In this document: piece after piece, positions 6,001 through 42,728 of the stretch
How positions within the stretch are numbered: the stretch's first letter is position 1
How the letters are laid out: each line of letters opens with the position of its first letter
Assembly (NCBI GenBank): GCA_964019415.1
Contig: OZ025876.1
Span: forward strand, 513,622 to 577,621
Reading direction: 5' to 3'
DNA from: Ianthella basta
Lineage: Eukaryota > Porifera > Demospongiae > Verongiida > Ianthellidae
Length of the DNA: 64,000 nucleotides
Made by a program: the position numbers and the translations under genes
The notes under the pieces: generated by a model
Databases searched by the model: none
The model's input: only the letters and a program-made list of their open reading frames with translations
Told to the model about the DNA's origin: nothing

Positions 6001-8994
6001 ATCGCGGAGAATGCTAGGAAGGTCCAACACCAGCCAACTATTTGGGGGGTCTGCCTTATTTGGGAGGTAGAGGGCATGACCAGCAGCTGACAGATCCTGA
6101 CACACCTCCTCTGGGGGCGGCATGGTCCGAGGAAGCTTGACCCTGTTATGTTGGATCCACTCCTCAAACTCCTGCAGCTGCACTGCTTGGGACAAGGAGG
6201 ATGACCTGATCTGTGATAGGACCCAGGCGAGACTGTACTTTGTGTGAATGGCTCTGAACTCAGGAATGGGGATCTCCCGGAGGAAGTGGCACAGTTTGTC
6301 AATGCCATCGGACTGGGGCTTGCGACAGTTTAGGAAACAGGATCCCACAAATTCCAGTGGCAATTCTTCCATCAGATCATTTCTGGTTGCCTCAATGCAC
6401 CTGTTGAGCTTGGCAGTGGCTTCTTGCTTGGATGCCACCTTGTCCAAGAAGCTACCAATGACAATGATTTGTGGAGGACTGGCAGTAGTGGACATCAGTG
6501 CCATTGGGGACAGCCAGCGATGAAGCTGGTGCAAGATGGACTCTTCTACTTCTGTCATCTTTACCACCAGCATGATGGTCATTGAGACTCCTGGTTTGGT
6601 GAGAAGTGATTCCAGAAACATCTGGTGAGGGCCATGGTAGTCATCCTGGCCAGCAAAGTCAAAGAAGACCACTTCCCCATACCTCTGGCTGCAGTGCAAA
6701 ATTGTTTCAATGCCAGCCGTCCGCTTGCGATGGTCACTCACTCTCCTCAGTTGATTGAAGATCCTACCCAAATAGGAGTTCCTTTCAGCTTGAAGTGCCG
6801 CAATGAGTGTGCTCTTGCCACTCTCTGCATTGCCAATGATACAGAGGGTCTTTCGAGAGGCAAAGGAATATGATTGCTTGATGGCCTTTGTGAACTGTTC
6901 CGAGGCTGTGCCAAAGGGAGTCTCATTAAGTGTGTTCTTGACCCTCACACTGGCTCCTCCTTCAGCCAGGAGTATCCCACACTGAGTGTGGTTAGAGATA
7001 GCAGCAAAGTGAAGAGCAGTGTTGCCATTTGTGCTTTGCATGTTAAGGTCAGCACCTGCCAAGATGAGCATTCTTACTAGCTCCTCATGGCCTTCACGTG
7101 TAACAGTCATGAGGGGAGTGCATCCGTCAATGTTCACACAGTTCACATTGCAACTATCAGCAATAAGAGCTTCTACAATATAAATGTGACCCAAATAGCA
7201 GGCATGAATGAGAAGGTTATTTCTCTCCTTACTTGATAGAACGCTGACACAGCAACCATTCTTGAGTAGAGCCTGAACAACAAACATATTACCTTCTGGC
7301 TCACGGCAAGCACAGTGAAGAAGAGCTTCTTTCTCCTCACTTGATAGAATGCGGACAGTGCAACCATTCTTGAGAAGAGCATGGGCCACAAACACATCAC
7401 CCTCTGGCTCACGGCAAGCACAGCGGAGAAGAGCTTCTTTCTTTTCAATTGATAGAATGTCGACACTGCTACCATTCTCGAGAAGAGCATGGACTACAAA
7501 CACATTACCCTCTGGCTCACGGCAAGCACAGCGGAGAAGAGCTTCTTTCTCCTTACTTGATAGAATGCTGACACTGCAACCATTCTTGAGAAGAGCATGG
7601 GCCACAAACACATCACCCTCATGGCAAGCAGAGTGGAGAAGAGCTTCTTTGTTTACTCTTGATAGAATGCGGACACTGCAACCATTCTTGAGAAGAGCAT
7701 GGACTACAAACACATTACCCTCTGGCTCACGGCAAGCACAGCGGAGAAGAGCTTCTTTCTCCATACTTGATAGAATGTCGACGCTGTAACCATTCCTGAG
7801 AAGAGCCCGGACAACAAACACATTACCCTCTGGCTTACGGCAAGCACAGTGGAGAAGAGCTTCTTTCTCCTCACTTGATAGAATGCCGACACTGCAACCA
7901 TTCTTGAGAAGAGCATGGACTAGAAACAAATTACCCTCTGGCTCACGGCAAGCACAGCGGAGAAGAGCTTTTTTCTCCATACTTGATAGAATGTCGACGC
8001 TGTAACCATTCCTGAGAAGAGCCCGGACAACAAACACATTACCCTCTGGCTCCCGGCAAGCACAGTGGAGAAGAGCTTCTTTCTCCTCACTTGATAGAAT
8101 GCCGACACTGCAACCATTCTTGAGAAGAGCATGGACTAGAAACACATTACCCTCTGGCTCACGGCAAGCACAGTGGAGAAGAGCTTCTTTCTCCTTACTT
8201 GATAGAATGCTGACACTGCAACCATTCTTGAGAAGAGCATGGGCCACAAACACATAACCCTCATGGCAAGCACAGTGGAGAAGAGCTTCTTTGTTTACTC
8301 TTGATAGAATGCGGACACTGCAACCATTCTTGAGAAGAGCATGGACTACAAACACATTACCCTCTGGCTCATGGCAAGCACAGTGGAGAAGAGCTTCTTT
8401 CTCCTTACTTGATAGAATGCTGACACTGCAACCATTCTTGAGAAGAGCATGGGCCACAAACACATCACCCTCATGGCAAGCACAGTGGAGAAGAGCTTCT
8501 TTGTTTACTCTTGATAGAATGCGGACACTGTAACCATTCTTGAGAAGAGCCCGGACAACAAACACATTACCCTCTGGCTTACGGCAAGCACAGCGGAGAA
8601 GAGCTTCTTTCTCCTCACTTGATAGAATGCCGACACTGCAACCATTCTTGAGAAGAGCATGGACTACAAACACATTATCCTCTGGCTCACGGCAAGCACA
8701 GTGGAGAAGAGCTTCTTTCTCCTCACTTGATTGAATGCCGACACTGCAACCATTCTTGAGAAGAGCATGGACTAGAAACACATTACCCTCTGGCTCACGG
8801 CAAGCACAGTGGAGAAGAGCTTCTTTCTCCTCACTTGATAGAATGTTGACATTGCAACCATTCTTGAGAAGAGTCTTAACAGCCAACATATCACCCTTTC
8901 TGCATGAATGCAAAAGAAACAGATCGTTCATCTGCCACATGGGCATTTCTTTACAGCTCGCTTCAGCTCGCCACATATCATCTCGTTTCGACAT
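3048..8994 (-). CDS. ROCO gene 1: ankyrin-Roc-COR-minisatellite-Death-Death protein
   Basis: Four-exon minus-strand model, 8994-4197, 4038-3751, 3572-3495 and 3367-3048 (TAG). All junctions are GT/AG and phases agree, giving about 1827 residues. Order: about 19 ankyrin repeats (residues ~20-690), mostly 34- or 36-residue units with ALLHCAC and VHALLKNGCSV signatures; Roc GTPase with P-loop GNAESGKS (~721-728), switch DFAGQ (~779) and a SFLDK guanine motif; COR (~890-1150, AAGHALYLPNKAD, LVLDLPSIL); about 34 copies of a PQSPAVPNQ repeat; a Death domain in exon 2; a Pro/Gln linker; and a second Death domain (TWSTLLTAITRAGYDTLAL). This is the DAPK/ROCO layout without a kinase. Such proteins couple GTP switching to Death-domain signalling in the cytosol; that role is family knowledge. 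The start is the first ATG in the open frame. The frame also runs 49 codons upstream without ATG, so a 5' exon is possible. Confidence 0.88.
4232..5153 (-). repeat. 27-bp coding minisatellite, about 34 units (ROCO gene 1)
   Basis: Tandem 27-bp units (plus strand ctgaggctggttgggtacag plus 7 bp) encode PQSPAVPNQ on the minus strand. The 3' part (low coordinates) uses PQSPAAPNQ and PQAPAAPNQ variants; the rest is nearly uniform. The array links the COR domain to the first Death domain and keeps frame because the unit is a multiple of three. Confidence 0.95.
7200..8900 (-). repeat. Tandem 102/108-bp ankyrin-coding repeats (ROCO gene 1)
   Basis: About 15 consecutive units are very similar at DNA level (core ggcaagcacagtggagaaga). 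They alternate between 34-residue units (HEGDVFVAHALL) and 36-residue units carrying a PEGN insertion (REPEGNVFVVHALL). Three ordinary, more divergent ankyrin repeats (near 6960-7200) separate this array from the Roc domain. Confidence 0.9.
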
Positions 8995-22202: not shown

Positions 22203-23020
22203 TAGTCTGGCTTGCTAGACCGTCCCTTCCCTTCCACGCCTACCGGGCGCTTACGGTACGGTCTGGCCAGGGGGGGTCGGACAAGGTCACGTGTGTCCGC
22301 AAAATGGCCGACGCGGCTGCTCTTTACTGTGTATTTTACCTATACTAGCAAAGAGCAGACATATTTCGAGAAACACGTTGCATTGCTTGTTTCTTTGCTT
22401 CTGAGCACACAGTTGGACAAGGGCTATCAGAAAATGGACCCTTCCCCGCTCTTCCCCAGCATCTAGGTAGGTTTTGCGAGCATTTTCCAACACCGGTGTA
22501 CGAGTGTTGGCTGATGCTGGCTACGAGGCAGATGGAGCCTAATCTGGGGTACTGAGCAAGTTCTCCTGTGGAAGTGACTCCTTAGAAGCTGGTAGCGAGT
22601 CCTCATTGATCACTTCAGGACTGCAAGACTGATATGTTGACTGCTTCTGCAATGGGAGTGCAATCGGCAGCCACGTCCTTGCAATAGTCTTGGTTCTGTA
22701 CACGATTTGTCACATTCGATAGCAGGGATGCTAGAAATGACTTAAGGGTGCTGGCAATCCTCAGGAAACGCTGCGATAACTTGCAAAACTAAATCGTGAA
22801 AGCGGTCAGACAATTAAGCCCAATCCACCGTATGGCTCCTTGGCTACGTAGGTACGGGTCATACCAGGGGCGCGAATGCAGTACAAGGCCCTGCCATGGC
22901 TCAGGGTATGCACATTCGGCCTTGGAGCACAGTCAGCTAACAGATGGATACGCGATTGGAATGTCAGGAATGCAATTATTGAGGTGCTGGTATTGCGCAA
23001 TCCCAGGACTTGTCCGACCC

Positions 23021-23355
23021 TAGTCTCGTCCCCAGCCCGCTTTCGGCCGCCATTTTGCAATGGCCCGAAAGGTGGTCTGGCACATTTGCTCGATATTTTG
23101 ATACCGGCCTTGGGGCGCTTGCCAAAATCTTGGCAAGCGCCTCCATGTCTTGCGATATGCAATTTAGCAGCTTCATTCGCTCACCTACGTGAGTCATATT
23201 TAGGTATTCTATCAAATGAGATCAAACTGTACCCAATTTTACCGCTTTCACAATTTTGAACGGTGGCCTGGTACAGTTTCTCAATGTCCGTTACCGCCCC
23301 TTAAGGCGATTCTAGTAATCGCCCCAATCATTGTGCTTCTTGCATGCATGTGACG
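23021..23355 (+). repeat. Left terminal inverted repeat of the 6.24-kb transposon
   Basis: About 335 bp, mirrored at 28,925-29,260 with a few per cent mismatch. It contains subterminal short palindromes such as gcgcttgccaaaatcttggcaagcgc (26 bp; arms 11 bp). The match fades near gcatgca(t/c)gtga at about 23,350. Confidence 0.9.
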
Positions 23356-23359
23356 CAAC

Positions 23360-23545
23360 ATACCGAAAGTTTTTAATTAATCAGAATATCGAGCAAATGT
23401 GCCAGACCACCTTTTGGGGGGCTGGGAACGAGACTAGATGCCCGATAGTCTCGTTCCCAGCCCCCCAAAAGGTGGTCTGGCACATTTACTCAATATTTTG
23501 ATTAATTGGAAACTTTCGGTATGTCGCGTCACATGTATGCATCCG
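23360..23545. repeat. Internal palindrome carrying two more copies of the transposon end
   Basis: A copy of the terminus ends at 23,437 (acgagacta) and another starts at 23,447 (tagtctcgttcccagcc), separated by exactly 9 bp, gatgcccga. The arms are about 80-95 bp and near-perfect inverse complements (taccgaaagttt / aaactttcggta). So 23,021-23,437 could be a 417-bp deletion derivative next to a full element starting at 23,447. Confidence 0.8.
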
Positions 23546-23582
23546 CTGCAAGAAGCCTGTTTTGCTATTCTATGTCGCTCAC

Positions 23583-26500
23583 ATGCGGTGTATCATCTGC
23601 GACCAGGAAACTACCCATCACCGTTATATAACGGCAGCCTGGATCAGTGGCCTAGGCCTACCCCACGCCGTACGAGTGCGGATAGAAGACAATGCCTTGG
23701 GGAAGTTAGCGTGCAGGGCCTGCTATCGTTTGGGAGAGCAGGTCGTGCAGAAGATTAAGTCGCTGCGCGACTCTTTAGCGGTACTAAGTGGCATCACGGG
23801 CATAGCCTTGGATGTAGCTATCAACGCACTGGAGACAGAGCAGCTGAACATGGATGAAGTTCCTCCAGTCGAGTCACCAGTTAGGCCTGATTCAGACGTA
23901 AGGAAGCGCCCCCTAACAAGCCCCGATCAGACATCGCCTGCCATCGAGCGCGCTAGCAAGCGAATCAATGTTTCCCATACCCCCGACAAGGAGCAGCCAC
24001 CACGTTCAAGGAGGAATCTGTTTGGAACAAATCAGGTTGCACAGTCAGCTTCACCAAGAATTCAGGTGATTACTTTAACTATACGTAATTAGCTGGCTAC
24101 ATTATTTATTTAATTATATTATATTATATTATTTAGATTAGTGGAGTATATTGTCACTTGCACTGTATATATGTATATAATATATATAGACCTCTTGAAG
24201 GGGCTGTATTAGGTGATATTTCCCGAGGTCGAAGGCCAAGGGATATATCACCAATACAGCAATACCAGTTAAGGAAATCATGTGCATGCAAATAGGTGAT
24301 ATAACATGGTTTCCTTGGTAACGGTATATATACTGTATATATATAATATATTGTTTGGCTTGATCCCTAGTGCTTTTAATTATTTTCTGCACATGTGCAC
24401 TCTATATTGATATACGACATTGATATAGGATATATATACATCTATATGATATATTGATATTGACATTGATATACGTTTTCAGCATGCATGCAGATAGCTA
24501 TAGCTATAGTCGATAGCTGATATATTGCATTGTTCTGGCATATGCATGCATGTGTGTAGGTTGACCAGAAGTCACATCGTGTCCATACTCCCTGGAAGCA
24601 TGTTGTGCGTACGCTACGCCTGAAGAGGACTCAGTACAGTGTCAGGACCCTACTGAAGAGCACCCCACTCAGAGATGAGGTCATACAGAATGTTTGCACT
24701 GCAATACAGACTGAATGCAAATCTCTTTGTAGGGCTGGACCTCGGCCTGCAGCTGGTACAACATCATTGCTGAGGAAGACTTCGGTAGCTGACATGAAGA
24801 CATTCACATGGCAAAGGCTTTTATTGTTTATTGGCAAGCAAGCTCCTGTTCTGCTTGCAATTGTGAAAACTGCAGTAGAGAAATCACCTAATGGAGGATT
24901 CAATATTGCAGCTGCAGGAATGGCTATTGCCATTATGCTGAATGCACGAAACAGGTTTTTATGCCACACACAAGCTGTTCTTTCTATTTTTCTCTATCGC
25001 AGTGGTGCAACCAAGGAGGTTGGTTTAAGTAATGTTTACATTACTATTACATGTACAGAATGACTTACTATAAGCTCTATGATTTGCTCTATTTTAGGTA
25101 TTCAACGTTCTCAACAAGATGTGCATCTGCTCATCTCATAATGCCACCCTGAATTACATGCGAGCTTGTCGACATGACTTTGACAAGCCTGTTCAATTGT
25201 GGAAATCATCCATGGAATCTTGCATGTTAACTCCAGAATCAGGTGAATTTGGCGATCCGACAAGCTATATGATTGTGGGTGACAATTTGGACAAAAATTT
25301 TCACCCTAGACACATGACCCTGGATAAGCAGGTGCACTCAGAGCACATGTTTCACTATTTTGGAGTGAAGAATCGTGTTGTCAGTAGGCACCCACTGACT
25401 GACAATGCTCCTGCTAGCAAGCTTAGTGATCTCGGCCCAGGAGACTTCCTGCCAAGTGTGGATGACAGCCTACAGCTGAGAGAAGATTACATTACTCTGA
25501 TGTGTAGGATTGCCCTTGAGAAATTCCCCTTTTTCAGAAAGTTATTTGGCGACATTGTTCCTCAGCACATACCACATCAATATGCAAAGGAAATGAAGAC
25601 AAAATCTGAAGTGGTAAGTGTATGTATATAATATGCATGCATGTATACTATATATTTTGTGTACCTCTGCTGATTGTACATGCAGGTGACACTTGGTGTG
25701 CTAATGAAGGATGAAAACACACGTGAGGATATGATCGCTATTGCTGAGCATGTAATTGACAATTATGTGCCCATGGTTGCAAGTGGAGAGGCAAATGAAG
25801 ATGTGGCATATGTTCAAGTACCATTCGTTGGAGATCAGCTCACAGTGGAACGATTGCGTAATATACAAAGAGCCAGAAGGACAGCAGACAGTGTGCAGGA
25901 ACGTTTAGAACCTCTAATACCAATGGTTGCTGATTGGCATGCAAAGCAAAGCCTATATGGGGTATGTTTGATGCATTTCATATTTCAGTGTGCATACATG
26001 CATACTATATTAGTATGAATATTAGCACTATGTGTGTCATTCACCACATGCAGGTTATGATGAATAGATTGTTCAGTGGTACATCAAGTCAAGAAGGAGG
26101 AACCCTCTTCCAGTTGCGTAATCTCATAAACAGAAGGAACGTAAGCCATGTCACACAGGGAAAGGTCAATGAAATAGAAGATTTTTTTGAGTTGGTGACA
26201 GTTTGTCACATTCAGGCTGTGTTCATGCTGCATTTTGGCATGAACGACAGAAAAGGCTTCCCAACTGTTAACATGCCTACTGAAGATGAGATACGCCATC
26301 TGAATAGCCAGCAAAGGATCAGTCTTCTGAGGGGAAAGGTAGCAGACATTGTTGACAAGTACATCACCACTAATTGGGCAAGAGGAAGAGCAACATCTGA
26401 CAACATGAGAGGAGTTACCAGAACAGAAAGTGTCCCTGAAGATCATAGCTACAGTTCCCCAGCCGGCCCAGTTACACCTGCTTCTGGACCACACTCTGCT

Positions 26501-27178
26501 GAAAATGATGGTGTTTTGGCCTATGCTTGCGCTGTATTGAGTGACGGTATGTTCATGCTGGAGTTTCGGGATGCTATTCGTGAAGGCGATGGTAGGAGAG
26601 TTTTAAGGTGTTGGACAGTTATGATGCTGTACTTCAAGGCTGCCCAGCGGGTGAAGTATGCCTTGGAGGGATTCCACCTCCTAGCCCAGATTAAGGCACT
26701 GCTTCCTAGGCGATTGGCAGAGGAGGTAATGTGGAATAGGTTTGTGAACACTTCTGGGATGCCAGGGAGAAACATCTCCTTAGATTTCCACATGGAGCAT
26801 ATGAACAGAAGGTACAAAGACCAGATGTCACGAATGGGCTCGAATGTTTCAAAGAAAACACTGGATGCTCTGGGTCAGGCATTTCGTCACTCTGAAGCCA
26901 TATCCAACAACTTGCGAGACAGTACACATGTCCACGCACCTTCAGGCAGGCATTCTGTTGCTGATACAGAAAAGGATGAGAATGCCATCCTAAAAGAGTT
27001 GAGGTCGTCACAGGTATTTACCTACATTCCTGGAAGATATCATGCATCTTTCAAGAACATACAAAGTAATGTTTTTTCTGCCATTGATGCAGATGCATAT
27101 TTACAGTGGTTACAAAGGTGTTTGGAACAATGCAGGAAAGAACAGCAAATTGACAGTTTACTACATGATAGGTCTTGA
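23583..27178 (+). CDS. Transposon-encoded DUF6589-like protein (five exons)
   Basis: Exons 23,583-24,065, 24,560-25,018, 25,098-25,613, 25,686-25,961 and 26,054-27,178 (TGA). All introns are phase 0 with GT/AG borders; the protein is about 952 residues. The N terminus has two CxxC pairs (CIIC at 3-6 and CRAC about 40 residues later), likely a zinc-binding fold, then a basic, Ser/Pro-rich linker. The central block contains IVGDNLDKNFHPRHM, reminiscent of the conserved GDN-D-N stretch in DUF6589 proteins of cnidarians, sponges and fungi. That assignment is from memory of the family. The C-terminal half has regular His/Asp/Glu-rich helices (VKYALEGFHLLAQIKALLP). The first in-frame ATG before CIIC was taken as start. 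It is the best candidate for the element's transposase, but no catalytic triad is proven. ROCO genes have coding VNTRs and ankyrin repeats; this gene has neither, so it is foreign to the locus. Confidence 0.75.
24066..24559 (+). other. First intron of the DUF6589-like gene, AT-rich with a hairpin
   Basis: The longest intron of the transposon gene. It contains a near-palindrome at about 24,203-24,260 (gctgtattaggtgatat ... atatcaccaatacagc) and runs of TATA. No coding signal is seen. Confidence 0.6.
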
Positions 27179-27310
27179 CGATACTATACATTATAAAACT
27201 GAGAATTCATATTATACTATTGTGCAACTACAATTTTTGCTTGATCTTTTACTCAACATGTACATTGCAATATCAATTTATGGATATAAAATGAAATTAT
27301 AAACCATAAG

Positions 27311-28909
27311 TCATAATTGCTCTTTTAAGATTTCAAACAGGTCAACAGCCACAGTTCTGCTAATTGGAACTAATGCCATAAGGTCATCAGCACAGGTGAT
27401 AGATGATGTACTATATATAGTAGCCAGTTTGTCTAGTATGGCTGGAGTGAGACCTGTTGACAAGTTCACACCAAGAATCAAAGGAATCCCAGAGGGACAG
27501 AGAGAGTCACGGTAGGCTTGCATTGCCTTTCTCACTCTTTCAGTTGATACATCAGAGACGTCCATGCATTGAAGTGGGTCAGTCACCCGGTGAGATACAT
27601 TACAACTGCTATGGTAACTGGCATCTATGCTACCAGAACACACATCACAACATCTCTGTTGGGGAACACAAATGGCTTCACACTCAAACATGTCTGCTAA
27701 GAGAGACCTTCGACATTCACTGGTGTTGGTGCAGTACCTGATCATGTCTTCTCCAACTGGAACAGTGCAGGATGTAAGGTCAGTGGAATGGAAGTAGAGC
27801 CGTGCCTCTGATAGCAATCCATCTCTGCCTGCACGCCCACATTCCTGAATGTATGTTTCAGTGTCTTCAGGTGGTAGCCAGTGTACAATTTTTCTTACAT
27901 TAGGCACATCCATACCCATTCCAAAAGCCACGGTGCAAATGAGAACTCTGATGGTGCTATTTGGTTTTGAATAAGAATTGATAATAACATCCTTTTCGTT
28001 TGCTGCTGCATGGCCCACAAACTTTGCAATGAGGCGATTCTGGGTCAGCTTTGGTGCATTTGGTGGATAACACAAAGATGATCCAAGTGACAAAATGAAG
28101 TAGTCTAACAGGTCATCACAGTGTTTGTAGTTTCTACAGAAAATAATTGTTTTGTCACAGCACGGACCCATTGTAACCAGGTCATGCACAATAGGTGCAA
28201 ACACAGACAAGTCACCCTTCTGCTCTAATTGTGACACATGGAAGCTGATATTAGGCTTCACTGCGGGGAGATTCACAACTGTAGCATGTTTCATTCCAAG
28301 AATACGCATCACAGCTTTCCTCGTTGAAGAGGTTGCTGTTGCTGTCAGGGCCATTATATGTACTCCTGGAGGCACCAAAGAACGAATTTCCCCAATCTCT
28401 GCATATTCCTTTCGAAATCCCGACAACCCCCATGCTTTGCACAGGTGGCATTCATCTACAACTAGTCCTCTTAAATTAGACTGATAGATAGGGTTCCTAA
28501 ACATTTCCCTCCACCGCAAAACAGATACAAGGGCTTCTGGACTAATGAACACTAGCTGACACTGTCCAGCTTCCACAAGTTCCTCAGACTTCTTATCTGT
28601 CTGGCCTGAACCGACAAATTGCGCGTTCAATCCTTTAGATTGATACTTTGCCACTTGCTCTTGCATTAATGCAATCAGAGGAGACACCACAACCACGATC
28701 GAACCTTCTCTTCCCTCTAGCAAGTCAACAGTCCATGGCAAAATAGCGTAGCATAAAGACTTCCCTTCGCCAGTCGGCAATGAAACGAATACATCGTGCC
28801 CCGAAAGAAACTCCAGCACAACTTCCTCTTGTACCTGCTTGACCTGAGGGTAGCCAAGCTTCGAAGCTGCTTCGCGTATAGCCCTTTTCTCTACCAGACT
28901 TTTCTCCAT
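27311..28909 (-). CDS. Transposon-encoded RecQ-like DNA helicase
   Basis: Single-exon ORF of 532 residues from ATG 28,909; the frame stays open upstream into the TIR, but this Met precedes the conserved core. Superfamily 2 motifs in order: QVQEE (motif 0), LPTGEGKS (Walker A), VVSPLIALMQEQ (Ia), VVDECHL (II, DECH in place of DEAH), ALTATAT (III), VAFGMGMDVPNV (V), QECGRAGRDG (VI). A RecQ zinc-binding segment follows with CRRSLLADMFECEA and CCDVC. No HRDC domain. RecQ enzymes unwind DNA 3' to 5' using ATP. Sitting inside the TIRs and tail-to-tail with the DUF6589-like gene, it is probably part of the element's transposition machinery (inference). No frameshift or stop is seen. Confidence 0.9.
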   Translation of the reverse strand: MEKSLVEKRAIREAASKLGYPQVKQVQEEVVLEFLSGHDVFVSLPTGEGKSLCYAILPWTVDLLEGREGSIVVVVSPLIALMQEQVAKYQSKGLNAQFVGSGQTDKKSEELVEAGQCQLVFISPEALVSVLRWREMFRNPIYQSNLRGLVVDECHLCKAWGLSGFRKEYAEIGEIRSLVPPGVHIMALTATATSSTRKAVMRILGMKHATVVNLPAVKPNISFHVSQLEQKGDLSVFAPIVHDLVTMGPCCDKTIIFCRNYKHCDDLLDYFILSLGSSLCYPPNAPKLTQNRLIAKFVGHAAANEKDVIINSYSKPNSTIRVLICTVAFGMGMDVPNVRKIVHWLPPEDTETYIQECGRAGRDGLLSEARLYFHSTDLTSCTVPVGEDMIRYCTNTSECRRSLLADMFECEAICVPQQRCCDVCSGSIDASYHSSCNVSHRVTDPLQCMDVSDVSTERVRKAMQAYRDSLCPSGIPLILGVNLSTGLTPAILDKLATIYSTSSITCADDLMALVPISRTVAVDLFEILKEQL

Positions 28910-28924
28910 CGGACAGCTACCGGG

Positions 28925-29260
28925 GGACGTGTTCTCACGTGCATGCGCAGCAAATGGGGCGCTTGCCAGAATCGCCTCAAGGGGCGGTAGCGGACATTGA
29001 GAAATTGTACCAGGCCACCGTTTGAAATTGTGAAAGCGGTCAAATTGGGTGCAGATTGGTCTCATTTGATAGAATACCTAAATATGACTCACGTAGGTGA
29101 GCGAATAAAGCTGCTACATTGCGTATCGCAAGACATGGAGGCGCTTGCCAAAATCTTGGCAAGCGCCCAAAGGGCGGTATCAAAATATCGAGCAAATGTG
29201 CCAGACCACCTTTCGGGCCATTGCAAAATGGCGGCCGGAAGTGGGCTGGGAACGAGACTA
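28925..29260 (-). repeat. Right terminal inverted repeat of the 6.24-kb transposon
   Basis: Reverse complement of 23,021-23,355; ends GGGCTGGGAACGAGACTA and is followed directly by the 9-bp duplication GTCCGACCC. The helicase start codon lies 16 bp inside it, so the TIR probably holds the helicase promoter. Confidence 0.9.
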
Positions 29261-29297
29261 GTCCGACCCCCCCTGCGGTCTGGCGAGCCAGACTAAA

Positions 29298-41869: not shown

Positions 41870-42728
41870 GTCTGGCTTGCTAGACCGTCCCGTAAGCGCC
41901 CGTCCCTTCCCTTCCACGCCTACCGGGCGCTTATGGGACGGTCTAGCGGGCCAGACAACCCCCTTGACCCACGCCGAGGGGGGTCGGTCAAGGTCACGTG
42001 TGTCCGCAAAATGGCCGACGCTGCTGCTCTTTACTGTGTATTTTACCTATACTAGCTAAGAGCAGACATATTTCGAGAAACACGTCGCATTGCTTGTTTC
42101 TTTGCTTCTGAGCACACAGTTAGACAAGGGCTATCAGAAAATGGACCCTTCCCCAGCATCTAGGTAGGTTTTGCGAGCATTTTCCAACACCGGTGTACGA
42201 GTGTTCTCTGATGTTGGCTACGAGGCAGATGGAGCCTAATCTGGTGTTCTGAGCAAGTGCTCCTGTGGAAGTGACTCCTTAGAAGCTGGTAGCGAGTCAT
42301 CATTGATCACTTCAGGACTGCAAGACTGATAGGTTGACTGCTTCTGCAATGGGAGTGCAATCGGCAGCCACGTCCTTGCAATCGTCTTGGTTCTGTACAT
42401 GATTTGTCACATTCCATAGCAGGGATGCTAGAAATAGCTTAAGCGTGCTGGCAATCCTCAAGAAACGCTACGATAACTTGCAAAACTAAATCGTGAAAGC
42501 GGTCAGACAATTAAGCCCAATCCACCGTATGGCTCCTTGGCTACGTACGTACGGGTCATACCAGGGGCGCGAATGCAGTACAAGGCCCTTCCATGGCTCA
42601 GGGTATGCACATTCGGCCTTGGAGCACAGTCAGCTAACATATGGAAACGCCATTAGAATGTCAGGAATGCAATTATTGAGGTGCTGATATTGCGCAATCC
42701 CAGGACCTTGTCCGACCCCCCCTTGACC
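41870..42728. mobile_element. Element related to the outer block 2 insertion, with a terminal hairpin
   Basis: Starts GTCTGGCTTGCTAGACCG. A hairpin pairs 41,870-41,902 with 41,924-41,956 (cgggcgcttatgggacggtc). The rest to 42,728 matches 22,260-23,020 and carries the single, empty GTCCGACCC site at 42,710-42,718. The element is flanked by cccacgcctgtg on both sides (41,858-41,869 and about 42,727-42,738), consistent with a 9-12-bp target duplication. No intact ORF. Confidence 0.6.

Follow-up and report, generated by a model that had tools for sequence, protein, structure and literature searches.

A composite insertion of a probable AcademH-type transposon that pairs a DUF6589-like gene with a RecQ-family helicase gene

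We analyzed a 64,000-nucleotide stretch of DNA from Ianthella basta (contig OZ025876.1 of assembly GCA_964019415.1, positions 513,622 to 577,621; hereafter the window), in which a 6,240-bp insertion at 23012-29269 carries a DUF6589-like gene and, convergent with it, a RecQ-family helicase gene. The insertion is bounded by perfect 9-bp target site duplications (TSDs) with the sequence GTCCGACCC (23012-23020 and 29261-29269), and its outer termini read TAGTCTCGT from 23021 and ACGAGACTA up to 29260. Inverted arms of 307 nucleotides (23020-23326 and 28955-29261), 93% complementary to each other, directly abut the TSD. An empty paralogous site, located in the block at 41.7-43.7 kb of the window, has a single GTCCGACCC (42710-42718). 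Joined without base 29270, the flanks of the insertion align with this site over 416 columns at 91.6%; about 30 bp just to the right of a run of C do not match the flanks, after which the alignment resumes. The duplications, the matched termini, and the empty site had all been recognized in a preliminary description of this DNA made from its sequence, and our analysis agrees with it on each of them. The same description assigned terminal inverted repeats (TIRs) of about 330 bp to the element. The inverted arms are indeed real; however, the left one belongs to a miniature inverted-repeat transposable element (MITE) and is not the end of the autonomous element.

The insertion is a composite of three parts: a MITE of 416 bp, an autonomous element of 5,815 bp (23446-29260, forward strand), probably of AcademH type, and a spacer of 9 bp between the two. 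The MITE (23021-23436) is inverted relative to the autonomous element and lies on the reverse strand, and the spacer, GATGCCCGA, occupies 23437-23445. The left end of the element (23446-23502, forward strand) consists of an 18-bp terminal repeat, TAGTCTCGTTCCCAGCCC, and a 39-bp subterminal repeat at 23464-23502; at its right end (29179-29260, reverse strand), both repeats are found again, with approximately 25 bp between the 18-bp terminal repeat and the 39-bp subterminal repeat at 29179-29217.

Both genes are open, in agreement with the earlier description. A splice-site search of the forward strand predicted five exons with GT/AG borders for the DUF6589-like gene, which together encode 952 residues with no internal stop. 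The first (23583-24065) encodes a cysteine-containing N-terminus and is followed by the second at 24560-25018; the third (25098-25613) contains the first candidate catalytic aspartate (IVGDNLD), the fourth (25686-25961) contains the second (GDQLT) and matches PF20231 with an E value of 4.1e-12, and the fifth (26054-27178) contains the candidate catalytic glutamate (HMEHMNR) and matches PF20231 with an E value of 1.3e-35. Other choices of GT/AG sites are also stop-free; thus, the exact exon borders are a prediction. The helicase gene (27311-28909, reverse strand) is a single, uninterrupted exon of 532 residues. It matches TIGR00614 (RecQ family) with 233.4 bits, versus the NCBIfam cut-off of 219.8, and its best match in PDB is 1oyw, an ATP-dependent DNA helicase (E value 3e-47), followed by chains named RecQ.

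The function of DUF6589 (PF20231) is listed in Pfam as unknown. Among the DUF6589 relatives that we found, the closest one, as opposed to the window protein, has a predicted structure that resembles the Hermes and P-element transposases, with the candidate D, D, and E residues conserved. Because of this transposase-like predicted fold and the conserved triad, the DUF6589-like protein is most likely the DDE-type transposase of the element, in line with the role first proposed for it. A PDB sequence search with the DUF6589 profile gave no convincing match (one chain, E value 2), and no NCBIfam family was found for P0001 at an E value of 0.001. A scan of viral contigs with exon 5 gave one stretch with a pattern match and none that was confirmed. 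DUF6589 was not mentioned in the open-access literature searched, where the string "PF20231" appeared in a single paper, on optics. Relatives with an organism name come mostly from animals (sponges, hemichordates, Hydractinia); no fungal-labeled relative was seen among the 7,989-7,992 scored candidates sharing most words, an absence that means little. One DUF6589 protein, P0010, is labeled bacterial (uncultured Candidatus Thioglobus), possibly as a result of host DNA in a symbiont assembly. Another, P0029 from Hydractinia, carries a zf-AD zinc finger at its N-terminus (Pfam E value 1e-9), which may hint at how the DNA-binding domain of the family is built.

The preliminary description had also proposed a genome search and a count of copies with intact 9-bp TSDs, and the search, which covered the 209-Mb assembly (96 contigs), bears on both the MITE and the two-gene element. 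The reverse complement of the MITE combines approximately 96 bp from the left end of the element (92.7%) with approximately 326 bp from the right end (90.4%), which is what a deletion derivative of the element would look like. Its first 331 bp have at least 43 near-complete matches in the genome, 42 of them outside the window in 39 loci (L022-L060), a lower bound given that 40 of 455 candidates were scored. In these 39 loci, 46 pairs of termini lie 380-450 bp from each other: 36 are flanked by a perfect 9-bp TSD, one by a TSD with a single mismatch, and the remaining nine represent either alternative pairings or copies that lack a TSD match. As a chance control, left and right 9-mers taken from different pairs agreed in 7 of 2,070 comparisons. 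By locus, a perfect 9-bp TSD at the normal MITE size is present in 34 of the 39, the others being L050 (perfect at 460 bp), L023 (one mismatch), L060 (two mismatches), and L034 and L058 (none); at L022, the count missed a second copy with a worn end. The TSDs of the family are 9 bp long and have no fixed sequence. At one locus on C82 (L028), neighboring MITEs have one duplication in common.

The two-gene module also recurs throughout the genome. PF20231 had 58 matches, merged to 40 loci, and the helicase had at least 88 matches in 61 loci, a lower bound that comes from scoring 81 of 680 candidates. A helicase locus lies within 6 kb at 26 of the 40 DUF6589 loci, where about 0.15 would be expected by chance, and the two genes are convergent at 21 of these paired loci, on the same strand at five, and divergent at none. 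Of the 14 DUF6589 loci with no helicase locus in that range, 13 cover less than 220 positions of the 410-position profile. The same-strand loci (L063, C3:976476-980091, C3:4512448-4518631, C6:7518037-7521652, and C6:7529813-7533428) show two gene orders. Perfect 9-bp TSDs were found at seven of the eight two-gene loci that we selected and examined at length, namely the window, L021, L061, L062, L064, L065, and L066; the ends of the eighth, L063, were not resolved within 8 kb. L065 and L066 are 100% identical over 5,391 bp and lie on different contigs with different TSDs, which indicates recent activity. Across 10 loci, the between-locus identities of the two proteins correlate (r 0.98, p 0.0002), and they still do so when one near-identical locus is left out (r 0.97, p 0.0004), although the remaining near-identical loci raise r and some fragments are short.

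A second copy of the autonomous element is found on C5 (L021 2099-8012), with 99.7% identity over 5,812 bp. Its start corresponds to the inner left end, immediately outside of which is its own 9-bp TSD, TGTCCGACC; no MITE adjoins it. Inside its left terminus is a 91-bp unit with inverted ends and TCTCGTTCC on each side, and relative to the window copy, its DUF6589 gene has a 1-bp indel that splits the frame. The C5 element is itself nested in a larger unit (L021 1295-8531) with the termini TAGTCTCGA and TCGAGACTA and a 9-bp TSD of its own, CATCATACA.

The junction of MITE, spacer, and element occurs once in the genome at up to two mismatches. The spacer together with the element end has one other site at up to one mismatch, C6:7209885 (L071). 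This site is occupied by a MITE of the same family as that in the window, with GATGCCCGA as its TSD on both flanks; nested in this MITE is a 774-bp relative flanked by a separate TSD, GTGCCAGAC, and the right end of the MITE bears an additional 17-bp copy of the terminus. C6:7209885 is a likely donor site of the composite. Judging from this anatomy, the inverted MITE would have adjoined the element at the donor site, the 9-bp duplication GATGCCCGA being common to both. The MITE may then have been carried along with the element, with the outer, right-type end of each serving to bound a single larger unit, which would have inserted at GTCCGACCC. The path of the composite is not fully explained by this: as viewed from the spacer, the C6 MITE points the same way as the element, and the MITE in the window points the opposite way.

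Two other histories of the insertion have to be considered. Two independent insertions, in which the MITE would sit next to the element and have a TSD to itself, were rejected, because the flanks of the MITE (GTCCGACCC and GATGCCCGA) and those of the inner element (GATGCCCGA and GTCCGACCC) differ at seven of nine bases, so neither has a TSD of its own. On the one hand, a single element with true 330-bp TIRs and no composite history would agree with the complementarity of the arms, with their position next to the TSD, and with the inverted ends of sister families, which measure 90-129 bp. On the other hand, the left arm lies within a 416-bp unit that is present by itself, flanked by a TSD, at dozens of sites, the inner left end is where the C5 copy starts, the spacer equals the TSD of the C6 MITE, and the three-part junction is unique, all of which make such an element very unlikely.

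The assignment to a class rests on published descriptions of AcademH and not on protein comparison. The sources place a RecQ helicase in Academ (PMC3627910), list Academ among the DDD/E superfamilies (PMC9587614), treat the helicases of AcademH and KolobokH as known (PMC10799480), and give TSDs of 9 or 10 bp for AcademH and 3 or 4 bp for AcademX, a difference tied to the encoded helicase versus nuclease (PMC10045372, citing Kojima 2020 Mob DNA 11:15). By helicase and TSD, the element fits AcademH as described there, and we estimate a probability of about 0.86 that the insertion is composite and stems from a cut-and-paste transposon of AcademH type, the autonomous unit of which encodes a DDE/D transposase and a convergent RecQ-family helicase. 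The preliminary description held that no standard class combines these features and suggested an undescribed superfamily. In such a superfamily, RecQ and the 9-bp TSDs would be convergent with AcademH, and the DUF6589 transposase would be unrelated to that of Academ; this would agree with the silence of the literature on DUF6589, with a fold search that points to hAT and P-element structures, and with the fact that AcademH is known here by description. However, named DUF6589 relatives are mostly from animals, and AcademH reportedly occurs in animals and fungi, going by the title of Kojima 2020. Moreover, RecQ in Academ (PMC3627910) and 9-10-bp TSDs with a helicase in AcademH (PMC10045372) are already on record, and we therefore dropped a separate superfamily as the leading reading. 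These published descriptions, direct protein comparison aside, provide a known superfamily with a RecQ partner; thus, neither of the earlier claims is supported, and a separate superfamily is unlikely. Still less probable, and rejected on the TSD and the termini, is KolobokH, in which a Kolobok-type transposase accompanies a RecQ helicase: Kolobok targets TTAA, whereas the TSDs here are 9 bp without a fixed sequence. The resemblance lies in gene content, since RecQ follows the transposase downstream in KolobokH and one red-alga Kolobok has RecQ on the complementary strand; however, KolobokH is described there only from fungi (PMC9587614).

If the AcademH-type reading is correct, the transposase would bind the short terminal and subterminal repeats, cut both ends, and join them to target positions staggered 9 bp apart, a chemistry suggested by the fold and the triad; staggered joining followed by gap filling would therefore produce the 9-bp duplications. 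A probable task for the helicase is the unwinding of DNA ends or gaps in the course of excision, joining to the target, or repair, and the 416-bp MITEs, as internally deleted copies, would have been moved in trans. The putative link between Pfam DUF6589 and a DDE-type transposase is the useful outcome, as it would suggest that transposon genes account for many of the DUF6589 genes of sponges, cnidarians, and hemichordates. In addition, the signs of recent activity open the way to asking why a RecQ helicase is part of a cut-and-paste transposon. The wider proposal, that DUF6589 is the DDE transposase of a RecQ-carrying, very recently mobile superfamily and that right-type ends of a MITE and an element were co-mobilized as a macro-transposon with a likely donor recognizable by its 9-bp duplication, has in our view an even chance of being correct.

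Several further observations concern target choice and nesting. The same TTGTCCGACC stretch was targeted by four insertions: the window composite (23012-23020), the C5 element (L021 2090-2098), and MITEs on C14 and C3 (L022 435-443 and L044 559-567), with two of the positions shifted by one base. Approximately 750 bp of left flank are common to the window, C5, and C14 insertions. The motif GGACTTGTCCGACCCCCCC has 217 occurrences in the genome at up to two mismatches, versus six for a reversed control, and a repeat family may therefore offer an insertion hot spot. The window insertion is nested in another inverted-repeat unit with TAGTCTGGC ends (22203-29295), whose 20-bp arms (22203-22222 and 29276-29295) match at 90% and whose termini are similar to the ones seen in the L065/L066 family; the window blocks at 9.2 and 59.7 kb appear without this outer unit.

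Among known systems, Helitrons lack TIRs and TSDs and have a helicase of the Rep/PIF1 type; they are ruled out by the inverted termini, the TSDs, and the RecQ-family helicase. The hAT (Hermes) and P-element transposases provide the closest solved folds to the model of the DUF6589 relative, with no PDB sequence match to DUF6589, and elements of both groups have 8-bp TSDs and are not known to carry a helicase gene. AcademX, whose nuclease is of the XPG type, would fall within one superfamily with the element provided that the AcademH assignment is right, but differs in its TSDs, 3-4 bp versus 9 bp here. XPG-linked copies that might form a bridge to Academ were not seen near DUF6589 loci: XPG_I had three matches in the genome (C20, C22, and C14), none near a PF20231 locus. 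With AcademH, in contrast, as described in the cited sources, the element has in common a helicase gene beside the transposase gene, 9-bp TSDs, and probably an animal host. The convergent genes, the TAGTCTCG termini, and the MITEs are features of the window element, which was compared with AcademH by helicase and TSD and differs from it in neither. Thus, it looks like a well-preserved new member of AcademH, a group named in 2020, and not like a new class.
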